DNA of 46,429 bases, taken from positions 1 through 46,429 of the forward strand of contig CANQND010000012.1 in the NCBI GenBank assembly GCA_947625115.1, given 5' to 3'. The stretch comes from an uncultured Clostridia bacterium (GTDB lineage: Bacteria; Bacillota; Clostridia; Christensenellales; CAG-314). Below the pieces are notes generated by a model. The model was given only the letters and a program-made list of their open reading frames with translations, searched no databases and had not been told where the DNA came from. Positions within the stretch are counted from its first letter, which is position 1, and every line of letters begins with the position of its first letter. A program made the position numbers and the translations under genes. This document shows positions 257-24,790 of the stretch, in pieces.

Positions 257-371
257 ATACACGGTTGCCGACTTGTTCCCTTTGGGCAAAGTATATTGAA
301 ATATTAAATATATCATACACCGTAACCCACTTGCTCCCTGCAAACAGGGGTGTCGGTAGGGGAAGTAAAAC

Positions 372-433
372 AGTTCGGGCGTTTACGCCCGTCCTCAACT
401 TGCGGCAACGCCGCAAACTTCACTCGCCGCAAG
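372..433 (-). repeat. Inverted 62-bp hairpin module
   Basis: The reverse complement of this 62-bp block equals 23714-23775 except for three adjacent bases. Those three are exactly the triloop of a TTGCGGC/GCCGCAA hairpin (gtt here on the minus strand, ata on the right). A second stem, CGGGCG/CGCCCG, is conserved. Open frames that cross it on either strand are low-complexity products of the repeats and are not called as genes. Confidence 0.75.
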
Positions 434-21371: not shown

Positions 21372-22448
21372 ATGAATATCGTTCAATACGTAACGGAGAA
21401 TAAATCGACCTTTGAGCAAATGCCTTTCAACGAAGTGGACAGTCTTGTGCTTTGCGAACTCTCCTATCTGCATTACACTCGCGCCGTTGCGGGCGCGCCT
21501 GCAAAAACGCTCAAAGAGCTGGCGAAAAATGTCGAAAGTTGGATAGAGGACACGCTTCTGCCCAAGTCCAACGCAAAACTCATCAAGGCAATTGCGGCAA
21601 GTCCGCGTTTTTCCGACGTCAAGGTGGGATATTTCCGCGAACGCAACAGCGTCAAGCGGGAAATACGCTTTGCCGCCGTCACCTTTCAGATAAAGCCCGA
21701 TTTGTATTATCTGGCGTATCGCGGCACGGACATAACGCTGTTGGGGTGGAAAGAGGACTTCAATATGGCGATAGTAAAGGTTATTCCCTCGCAAAAACTC
21801 GCCGCAGACTATATGGAGTTTGTCGCCTCGCAAACAGAGGGCGAATTGATACTCGGCGGACACAGCAAGGGCGGAAATCTCGTTATCTATTCCGGCGTGT
21901 TCGGCAGTGAAAAGACAAAAAAACGCGTATCCGCTATCTACGACCACGACGGTCCCGGTTTCAAAAACGACATTTTCGACGACCCACGTTACGTAGAGAT
22001 GATACCTCGCATACACAAAACCGTCCCTCACGATTCCATTATCGGAATGTTGTTGACCACAATGCAACACTACGATGTGGTGGAGAGCAACAGCGTTTCC
22101 GTTATGCAACACAACCCGTTCAGTTGGGAAGTAAAAGATTTTCAATTCAAAAAGTTGCCCGAAACGGCTCATACTTCGGTGGCTACCGACGAGGCACTCA
22201 CCAATTGGATAGCCTCTTTGGACAAGCCCACGACCAAGAAGTTGGTAAACGCCATCTTCACCGTGTTGCGGGGCAGCGGTGTGGAAACCGTCCCCGAATT
22301 GCTCAAAAACCCGCTAAAAAAGCTGATAAAAATGCAACAGGCGTTCAAATCTCTGGACGAAGAAAGTAAACAACTGCTGTTGGGCAACGGCAAAGAACTC
22401 ATCGCTCTTTGGTTCGCGTCTATGCGGCACGTTCGTTCGACAAAATAA
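21372..22448 (+). CDS. DUF2974 (Mbeg1-like) alpha/beta hydrolase, copy 1
   Basis: A lipase-like fold protein of unknown substrate. Seen: YRGTD (116-120), a nucleophile elbow GGHSKGG with S165, HDGPGF (192-197) and HKTVPHDSIIGML (215-227) as candidate acid and base regions. 358 residues, the family norm; no signal peptide. Strong GGAGG site and promoter. It is the first of a tandem pair, 21 bp before its paralogue. The C-terminal 60 residues are helical and charged. Confidence 0.88.
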   Translation: MNIVQYVTENKSTFEQMPFNEVDSLVLCELSYLHYTRAVAGAPAKTLKELAKNVESWIEDTLLPKSNAKLIKAIAASPRFSDVKVGYFRERNSVKREIRFAAVTFQIKPDLYYLAYRGTDITLLGWKEDFNMAIVKVIPSQKLAADYMEFVASQTEGELILGGHSKGGNLVIYSGVFGSEKTKKRVSAIYDHDGPGFKNDIFDDPRYVEMIPRIHKTVPHDSIIGMLLTTMQHYDVVESNSVSVMQHNPFSWEVKDFQFKKLPETAHTSVATDEALTNWIASLDKPTTKKLVNAIFTVLRGSGVETVPELLKNPLKKLIKMQQAFKSLDEESKQLLLGNGKELIALWFASMRHVRSTK

Positions 22449-22469: not shown

Positions 22470-23558
22470 ATGAACATTGTAGATTACGTAAGAAAAAACA
22501 AAGCCACCTTTGCCGAACAGCCGCTGAACGAAGTGGACAGCCTTGTGTTTGCCGAAGTCGCCTACTTCAACTTTCGCCGCAGTGAATCGCAACTGCCCAA
22601 GCGCACGTTGGGAGAACTGACCCGCGACGCCGAGTATATGACGGCGGGAACGCTGTCCATTTTGCGCAGGCACAACCTGCAACTCGTCAAGGCGTTAAAC
22701 AAAAGTCCGCGTTTTGCCCCCGTTGAAGTGGGGTTTGCGCGCAGTCGAAGCAGCGATTCCAAGGAAGAACGTTTTGCCGCTGTCACTTTCCGCACGGGCG
22801 AAAATTCGTGGCATATATCCTATCGCGGCACGGGTGTGTCCCTCGTTGGTTGGAAAGAGAATTTGAAAATGGCTCTTATGCTCGTTATCCCCACGCAAAG
22901 GATCGCCCTCGATTACCTTACGACAGTCGCTTCGCGCGTGAGCGGTTCTCTCACTTTGGGCGGATTGAGCAAAGGAGGCAATTTGTCCGTGTTCGCCGCC
23001 ACCTACGCGCCCGACAGCGTAAAGGAGCGTATATCCGCCGTCTACAATCACGACGGTCCGGGCTTCAAAGAGGGCATATTCGACGACCCGAGATACCTGT
23101 CCGTTGCCGATCGCATACACAAAACCGTCCCTCACGATTCCATTGTGGGAATGTTGTTGAACACCACGCACAACTACGAAGTGGTGGACAGCGTGGGCGT
23201 TTCGATAAAACAGCACGATCCGTTCACGTGGGTAGTGAAAGACAATTACGGTTTCAAAAAACTGCCCCAAACCACGCGTACTTCCAAAGTTACCGACGCC
23301 GCGTTGACAAAGTGGCTGTCGAATATGGACGAGCGCACTCGCCGCAGGTTCGTCTACGCGGTGTTCGCGATAGTGGAGGGTAGCGGCGCGCGGGAAGTGG
23401 GCGATTTTCTGCATAGACCGTTACGCAAGATCAGACTTATGCGCAAGGCGTACGACGCTCTTCAACCGAGCGACCGCGAACTCATCGCGCACGGCGGCAA
23501 GCAACTGCTTTCGTTGTGGTTCGGCGACTTGTTCGCTCTTGCCAAAAGAAAAAAATAG
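22470..23558 (+). CDS. DUF2974 (Mbeg1-like) alpha/beta hydrolase, copy 2
   Basis: A paralogue of the preceding gene; the two open nearly alike (MNIVxYVxxNKxTFxxxPxNEVDSLV). Here the elbow is GGLSKGG with S167, so the position before serine is Leu instead of His, and YRGTG replaces YRGTD. HDGPGF and HKTVPHDSIVGML are kept. 362 residues. The ribosome site is weak (CCGAGCAACT), suggesting coupling to the gene upstream. A strong terminator follows. Divergent active-site neighbours suggest different substrates. Confidence 0.88.
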   Translation: MNIVDYVRKNKATFAEQPLNEVDSLVFAEVAYFNFRRSESQLPKRTLGELTRDAEYMTAGTLSILRRHNLQLVKALNKSPRFAPVEVGFARSRSSDSKEERFAAVTFRTGENSWHISYRGTGVSLVGWKENLKMALMLVIPTQRIALDYLTTVASRVSGSLTLGGLSKGGNLSVFAATYAPDSVKERISAVYNHDGPGFKEGIFDDPRYLSVADRIHKTVPHDSIVGMLLNTTHNYEVVDSVGVSIKQHDPFTWVVKDNYGFKKLPQTTRTSKVTDAALTKWLSNMDERTRRRFVYAVFAIVEGSGAREVGDFLHRPLRKIRLMRKAYDALQPSDRELIAHGGKQLLSLWFGDLFALAKRKK

Positions 23559-23566
23559 AATTTCAA

Positions 23567-23612
23567 CGCGCTCCCGCAACGCAAAAAAGCGATATGGGGG
23601 CGCGATTTTTTT
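23567..23612 (+). terminator. Terminator after DUF2974 pair
   Basis: CGCGCTCCC (23567-23575) pairs with GGGGGCGCG (23596-23604), followed by ATTTTTTT. It sits immediately before the hairpin mosaic begins. Confidence 0.8.
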
Positions 23613-23614
23613 AG

Positions 23615-23775
23615 CCGACCAAACGCAATGCTGTCGCTCGGGTATTCGCCTGAGGACAGTGAAGTTTTGCGCTATGCGCAAAGTGAAGTTGTGCTGTCGC
23701 ACAGTGAAGTACGCTTGCGGCGAGTGAAGTTTGCGGCATAGCCGCAAGTTGAGGACGGGCGTAAACGCCCGAACT
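23615..23775 (+). repeat. GTGAAGT-linked hairpin array
   Basis: Starts with a 28-bp unit (23615-23642) that recurs exactly at 24205-24232. Then GTGAAGT occurs at 23659, 23683, 23704 and 23724, about every 21 bp. Between copies lie different small hairpins: TTTGCGC-tat-GCGCAAA, TGTGC-tgtc-GCACA, a GCG-rich stem and TTGCGGC-ata-GCCGCAA. The last 62 bp are the inverted module seen at 372-433. No gene is seen from 23559 to 24937. Confidence 0.75.
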
Positions 23776-23826
23776 GTTAGCACTATTGTACGCGGGGGGG
23801 GGATAAGTAAGCGACTGCGATAAATA

Positions 23827-23999
23827 ACCGTCCCCGTCACGGCAAAATGGGTCCCCGCGCAAGTACGCAAATACTTGCGTGGGAAGAGGAGCCGCCGACT
23901 GTTAGCGGTACCGAGTGCGTTTACGCGCTTGGTGCTAACCAAAGCCGTGCGGCGACGAGGGGAAGGGGGACCACGAAGTGGTGGAAGAGGAATATCCGA
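23827..23999 (+). repeat. Structured repeat module, copy 2
   Basis: A direct copy of 449-625. The loop of CGCAAGTA/TACTTGCG changes from cgccca to cgcaaa. ACCGAGTGCG with loop ttta replaces ACCGAGCGCG with loop cttg, keeping pairing through a G-T pair. ACCAC-gaa-GTGGT replaces ACCGCC-gtta-GGCGGT. These changes keep base pairing and so support a folded RNA or single-stranded DNA. Confidence 0.75.
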
Positions 24000-24010
24000 A
24001 ACAAATTTTC

Positions 24011-24098
24011 GCGCCTCCCTCGTTGCAGATTATTTTTGGTCGAACACCCTCGCTCCTTGTGTCACAAGGTCCCCGACCGCCCACCCCTGAGTGAAGCG
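24011..24098 (+). repeat. 88-bp repeat, copy A
   Basis: Matches 24543-24630 with very few differences, one of which is the central base of CCTTGTGTcACAAGG. It contains CCCTCGTTGCAG, a T-rich tract and GACCGCCCACCCCTGAGTGAAG. The next stretch, 24099-24204, is AT-rich near its end and shows nothing recognisable. Confidence 0.7.
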
Positions 24099-24204
24099 AA
24101 GTTTTCCGCTACTATGTGCGAAACGCACATCTCCGCGCGCGAAAATTCCGATTTGACATAGAAGTAGGCTTCTGTTAATTTTATAATCACAAAATTTTGA
24201 ATAA

Positions 24205-24420
24205 CCGACCAAACGCAATGCTGTCGCTCGGGCGTTCTACCAAAAAAGGCTTCGCTTCGGGTGGCGAGTCCACAACCGCGTTAAAGGCTTCTCTTGGGGA
24301 CGCAAGAGTGCGCCACGCAAAGCAAACGTGTCCGTAGGAAACAAGTTTGCAACTGAAATAAAGGCTTCTCTTGACGACGCAAGAGAAGCTGGCACCGATA
24401 GGTGACTGATGAGTTTCGAC
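24205..24420 (+). repeat. Hairpin module with ATGAGTTTCGAC end
   Basis: Begins with the 28-bp unit also at 23615. It contains repeated GGCTTCTCTT units; the one at 24363-24390 forms a hairpin with AAGAGAAGCT. It ends with CACC-gata-GGTG and GTGACTGATGAGTTTCGAC (24402-24420). The 24363-24420 part is the reverse of 198-254. Confidence 0.7.
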
Positions 24421-24520
24421 CTGAAAAGCAAGTAGTCTACCTGCAATCTGCGCGGGCAAGTTGGGGCTTTTCTAACGCCCCAACGCAGTCGTCACCGATA
24501 GGTGACTGATGAGTTTCGAC
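24421..24520 (+). repeat. 42-bp identical module plus second ATGAGTTTCGAC unit
   Basis: Positions 24450-24491 are identical to 34-75 (42 of 42). They are followed by CACC-gata-GGTG and a second GTGACTGATGAGTTTCGAC (24502-24520). Here GTTTCG can pair with the following CGAAAC (stem across actac). Confidence 0.75.
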
Positions 24521-24542
24521 TACCGAAACAAGTTAAATTCCC

Positions 24543-24790
24543 GCGCCACCCTCGTTGCAGATTATTTTTGGTTGAACACCCTCGCTCCTTGTGTTACAAG
24601 GTCCCCGACCGCCCACCCCTGAGTGAAGTGAAGTTTGCCGTTACTCGGCAAGTGAAGTACAATTGTGAAGTTTGCGGCATAGCCGCAAGTTAAGGACGGG
24701 GCAATCGCCCCCGCCGTTCCTCTCCCCGACCACCAACCCCCGTCCGCAGGAGTAGGTCGGCAACTGTAATAAGTATCGCCCCGCATTTTT
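24543..24790 (+). repeat. 88-bp repeat copy B and GTGAAGT hairpins
   Basis: 24543-24630 repeats 24011-24098. GTGAAGT follows at 24623, 24628, 24652 and 24665, separated by TTGCCG/CGGCAA and ACAATTGT stems, then TTGCGGC-ata-GCCGCAA and a GGGGC/GCCCC stem. The element fades out near 24790, and an AT-rich stretch with the rarA promoter follows. Confidence 0.7.

Follow-up and report, generated by a model that had tools for sequence, protein, structure and literature searches.

Arrays of variable hairpins with a constant GTGAAGT linker in an uncultured gut Clostridia genome: a dispersed Gut-1 repeat with REPIN-like arrangement

Among the systems closest to the arrays described here are two groups of dispersed repeats and one family filed as RNA. 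REP, REPIN and BIME elements of genomes with RAYT genes are many intergenic palindromes with a module of two inverted units, in which complementary mutations preserve pairing (PMC2817692). Pneumococcal BOX elements are built of boxA, boxB and boxC modules of about 50 nt, each with a fixed sequence (PMC3049150). Gut-1 entered the literature in 2010 as a non-coding RNA known from human-gut sequences only, and was graded as certainly RNA and probably not cis-regulatory (PMC2864571). It is typed as sRNA in Rfam (RF01706), and a literature search on Gut-1 found nothing beyond the discovery paper.

Anatomy and family identity of the array

The window is the complete stretch of 46,429 nt analysed (contig CANQND010000012.1), and it belongs to a 1.57 Mb assembly designated G000. 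The linker GTGAAGT is found exactly at 23659, 23683, 23704 and 23724, with spacing of 24, 21 and 20 bp, and a second set lies at 24623, 24628 (overlapping), 24652 and 24665, just where the preliminary description had placed both arrays. The gaps of the main array contain, in order, the palindromes TTTGCGC-TAT-GCGCAAA, TGTGC-TGTC-GCACA and ACGCTTGCGGCGA, so the earlier claim of a different small hairpin in each gap holds. Cassette ACGCTTGCGGCGA is imperfect, and most sister copies have ACGCC-TTGC-GGCGT instead. A fourth palindrome, TTGCGGC-ATA-GCCGCAA, follows these three, and more hairpins are present on both flanks. By a simple count, the window has nine GTGAAGT against 4.9 expected, a weak enrichment reached by 7 of 100 shuffles; the clustering of the linkers, not their number, is the striking property. 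Folded as DNA, the array is more stable than all 200 shuffles (z -2.7). The features are listed in Table 1.

Table 1. Features of the array and its flanks in the window, and loci of a second linker family in other genomes
Feature	Position	Strand	Remarks
5' head of the element: CCGACCA..., hairpin CTCGGGTATTCGCCTGAG (23637-23654), then GACA	23615-23658	+	Recurs upstream of many G000 copies, often beside unique gene sequence
Core array: four GTGAAGT linkers; hairpin cassettes 23666-23682, 23690-23703 and 23711-23723	23659-23730	+	Rfam Gut-1 match
Cap hairpin TTGCGGCATAGCCGCAA, then GTTGAGGA	23731-23755	+	In nearly all G000 copies
Flanking hairpin CGGGCGTAAACGCCCG; CGGGGCAATAGCCCC at the same place in other copies	23756-23771	+	
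Tail: other dispersed palindromic modules in a chain, shuffled from copy to copy, with GACGGGGACGG-type and TCGTTGCAGATTATTTTTGG modules among them	23772-24620	+	Downstream-flank repeat matches
Second, shorter array: linkers 24623/24628, 24652 and 24665; cassettes TTGCCGTTACTCGGCAA and ACAATT; cap 24672-24688	24623-24688	+	
Third copy, truncated: the cap, a single linker and a portion of cassette 3, amid further tail modules	369-433	-	97% identity to query 115-179 (query = window 23600-23800)
Second linker family (ATATCATC/GATGATAT linkers)	L240, L359, L362, L364, L317, L366		

Two similar tandem genes are located at 21372-22448 and 22470-23558; the second, which is Mbeg1-like (PF11187), has its 3' end shortly before the array. 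A hammerhead ribozyme was suspected at CTGATGAG...GAAA and was rejected, with no Rfam match found. A CRISPR array was rejected, as the preliminary description had done, because the constant unit is only 7 nt long (CRISPR repeats have about 23-50 nt) and the spacers are self-complementary palindromes. An ordinary tandem repeat was likewise correctly dismissed there.

The array is real, and what the preliminary description missed is its identity with a catalogued family. The Rfam model RF01706 (Gut-1 RNA) matches the window at 23657-23735 from model position 1 to 77, end to end, with three hairpins between GUGAAAU-like linkers (43.9 bits, E 5.6e-7), just below the gathering cut-off of 50 bits. 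Sister copies in the same genome exceed this cut-off (G000:C9:22036 with 53.5 bits and C61:883 with 50.1 bits), and the second array of the window gave a weak match (24626-24698, 21.2 bits). Within the order, 38 of 151 genomes carry Gut-1, many of them with at least ten scored copies; outside it, 2 of 298 genomes do, taken as an even draw of the phylum. Scored matches reach at least about 30 per genome, and these copy numbers are lower bounds, as 29 or 15 candidates were scored per genome.

Dispersal, mosaic tails and neighbouring genes

The preliminary description had proposed counting linker-hairpin units genome-wide. In G000, 70 pairs of the form GTGAAGT-N6-30-GTGAAGT were found and none of the reversed control pattern, so further arrays exist; a DNA similarity search with window 23600-23800 as query recognized about 42 similar places. 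The core usually consists of three cassettes, though the number ranges from two to five, with GTGAAGT between them and the cap hairpin and GTTGAGGA after them. On the downstream side, all sister copies show repeat matches over more than 300 bp and continue as other dispersed palindromic modules, and upstream flanks are mostly unique; the array is thus the 5' head of a longer, polar repeat mosaic, a larger feature than that first described. The tails in the window (23772-24620) and at L031-L060 are intergenic mosaics of many such modules, and their GACGGGGACGG hairpins resemble palindromes which flank RAYT-like genes in genome G118 (L373-L375). In G000, G012 and G040, many contigs stop a few hundred bases or less from an array; repeats that break assemblies are expected to have this effect.

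Genes adjacent to the arrays in G000 are unrelated, and include those for ProRS, L7/L12, DegV, an alcohol dehydrogenase and an ABC ATPase, among others, as well as tmRNA. At a single locus (L054, 469-1119), a divergent serine recombinase (resolvase) gene lies 61 nt from the array head. Two syntenic loci were compared between species. The gap upstream of rarA is 1379 nt in G000, versus 124-221 nt in six relatives whose upstream gene is homologous (522 and 628 nt in two others), and the distance from tmRNA to the next conserved landmark is 1016 nt versus 209 nt in G005. Both loci show insertion-sized differences of roughly 0.8-1.2 kb, absent from relatives.

Gene orientation beside the arrays was called with codon scores. 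In G000, 21 of 25 upstream genes point the same way as the array, as do 11 of 21 downstream genes. This bias speaks against a purely mobile-DNA reading and could point to a function at 3' ends, with the array as a selected mRNA 3'-end element, either a terminator or an exonuclease block. Consistent with it, of the 16 arrays of G040 that lie no more than 50 nt from the upstream gene, 14 share its orientation, and the tmRNA of G000 (L248, G000:C7) is without the intrinsic terminator common in relatives and has an array about 15 nt past its CCA. Against it, the orientation bias is weak or absent in other genomes except for the G040 arrays very near gene ends, and was not seen in G036, G012 and G142. 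An apparently intact terminator precedes several arrays, array hairpins are not followed by a T-tract, and the pattern could reflect later co-option of an inserted element. A preference for insertion directly 3' of intrinsic terminators, suggestive by eye, was rejected on counts, as 17 terminators point into elements and 20 away; this lack of enrichment toward elements likewise disfavours the 3'-end function, which we regard as rather unlikely.

Stem pairing, cassette exchange and inverted arms

Of 198 distinct cassettes collected across genomes, 170 have at least 60% of their stem positions paired, compared with 7% of shuffled cassettes; this figure comes from an earlier parser with looser linkers that split GC-rich hairpins, and a set of 302 distinct cassettes comes from its replacement. 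Pair column 11-21 of cassette 1 is CG in ten, GC in eight, AU in three and UA in two sequences, with 13 two-sided changes and no one-sided change. Hairpins vary between copies and between species. Among 1729 stem positions in the 302 cassettes, 1629 are Watson-Crick, 26 G-T, 25 A-C and 49 other; these cassettes were preselected for pairing by a filter that treats G-T and A-C alike. No RNA-strand signature was seen in these mispairs (G-T to A-C 26:25). An RNA under selection on a single strand would be expected to accept G-U more readily than A-C, so the equality points to DNA or to a mutational process that makes palindromes.

The same cassettes recur in different combinations across copies. 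In G012, two types in slot 1 and two types in slot 2 occur in all four combinations, as read from the cassette list, and a scripted test with rough classes found single quartets in G000, G012 and G040, some of them based on minor stem variants. Such mixing, together with perfect pairing and the lack of one-sided intermediates, would also suit an origin in which template switching creates palindromes locally and gene conversion between existing repeats alone spreads and homogenises them, with no transposition. The insertion-sized differences at two syntenic loci and the unique upstream flanks of copies require the seeding of new sites, and make this origin improbable.

In other genomes of the order, array pairs are arranged in facing orientation: 27 convergent (forward-reverse) and no divergent (reverse-forward) pairs were found in 65 elements. 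Two inverted palindromic units, as in a REPIN, are thus present in those genomes, and are rare or distant in G000, where the convergent arm is usually absent or about 1 kb away. Single arms dominate in G040 and G000. Two G000 composites, a minority there, have a matching inverted head about 1 kb off and CCGACCA/TGGTCGG ends (the pair L032/L046, and L038 with L059). Six paired elements, four of Gut-1 and two of the ATATCATC family, gave z of -4.0 to -6.0 when folded as single-stranded DNA, and in several of the predicted folds the linkers of opposite arms pair and the cassettes form side hairpins.

The ATATCATC family is a second kind of array, with a constant ATATCATC/GATGATAT linker and variable hairpins, identified in G010, G022, G033 and G036 in intergenic DNA, often beside tRNA genes. 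All five parsed elements have the convergent design. It resembles Gut-1 arrays in its constant linker, variable palindromes, convergent arms and intergenic position, and differs in the linker sequence and in giving no Rfam match at the three loci scanned.

Inverted arms bear also on the reading of Gut-1 as a stand-alone small non-coding RNA, as in Rfam and in the discovery paper. The covarying stems agree with those assignments. Tens of copies per genome at unrelated places, the facing arms and the equal G-T and A-C mispairs, where selection on one RNA strand predicts an excess of G-U, do not; moreover, just two weak promoter-like matches were found across the whole intergenic region, none of them upstream of the main array. 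We consider a stand-alone RNA quite unlikely.

Search for a mover and comparison with known systems

No autonomous partner or transposase was identified for the Gut-1 arrays. The window carries a Y1 gene near the contig end (45916-46272, minus strand), which is an IS200/IS605 family transposase (153.5 bits against a cut-off of 55) and fails the RAYT model (33.2 against a cut-off of 80). Among 14 array-rich genomes searched outside the genus, 11 have no Y1_Tnp (PF01797) match above cut-off; the distribution of Y1 genes does not follow that of the arrays, and a Y1 TnpA is not present wherever the element is abundant, as it should be for an IS200/IS605 derivative. RAYT-like genes are present in G099, G118, G120 and G104; of 17 genomes, only six gave a match to the RAYT model at E 0.001, and one exceeded its cut-off. 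The preliminary description had suggested looking for a TnpA/RAYT-like gene next to other copies, and this expectation failed, as none of ten RAYT-like genes inspected is flanked by inverted Gut-1 arrays. Those of G118 have their own GGGGAC-type palindromes on either side, and one of G099 has a two-linker remnant nearby, on one side only. An association with RAYT or Y1 genes was therefore rejected. Of the REP/BIME analogy drawn earlier, the architecture stands (inverted palindromes in many intergenic copies) and the spread by Y1 or RAYT enzymes does not. High copy number, inverted intergenic palindromes and the RAYT-like genes of the four genomes would suit a genuine REP/BIME family mobilised by a RAYT or by some other Y1 transposase, but this reading is very improbable.

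Most probably, the array in the window is one arm of a dispersed, non-coding, likely mobile and non-autonomous REPIN-like DNA element, whose family is filed as Gut-1 RNA, and not a stand-alone sRNA. Its dispersal, conserved pairing, cassette reassortment, convergent arms in relatives and insertion-sized differences at two syntenic loci support this reading. In the manner of a REPIN or MITE, copies would spread through intergenic DNA by active transposition, using enzymes provided in trans. The sequence recognised is likely to be the constant GTGAA(A/G)T, and the hairpins are probably recognised by shape, so that stems would be free to change while pairing is kept; cassettes may be swapped between copies via recombination. 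The full element would have two arms facing each other, so that the linkers of one could pair with the linkers of the other and the cassettes would be side branches, and, once single-stranded or extruded, the paired arms may adopt a stack of four-way junctions.

Still more tentatively, arrays of variable hairpins on a constant linker, of which two or more unrelated kinds exist (GTGAART and GATGATAT), might represent a general class of DNA elements that are read by their structure; their paired arms would extrude as ladders of four-way junctions recognised and moved by a structure-specific recombinase, a proposal we hold as doubtful. With a linker of constant sequence and hairpins free in sequence, the arrays lend themselves naturally to tests of shape-based DNA recognition. 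The results suggest that an Rfam sRNA family would really be mobile or repeat DNA, with consequences for the annotation of uncultured gut genomes, for false CRISPR and ncRNA calls, and for assembly, because many contigs end at Gut-1 arrays.

The sequence family itself is already known, and what is new is its repeat nature, inverted architecture, absent RNA-strand bias and cassette exchange. The window array belongs to the same family as RF01706, with three hairpins joined by GTGAA(A/G)T and the whole model matched; Gut-1 in Rfam is an sRNA gene from human gut samples, whereas the arrays studied here form a DNA repeat that has many copies, inverted arms and a mosaic make-up and is concentrated in a single order of uncultured, Clostridia-like gut bacteria. 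With REP, REPIN and BIME elements, Gut-1 arrays share intergenic palindromes, inverted units and kept pairing, but their hairpins vary from cassette to cassette while the 7-nt linker is constant, and they have no GTAG/GGAG-type 5' motif and no associated RAYT. The principle of pneumococcal BOX elements is similar, as these are also modular and dispersed, have a variable number of internal modules and co-cluster with other repeats (PMC3049150), but boxA, boxB and boxC modules are fixed in sequence, unlike the Gut-1 cassettes.
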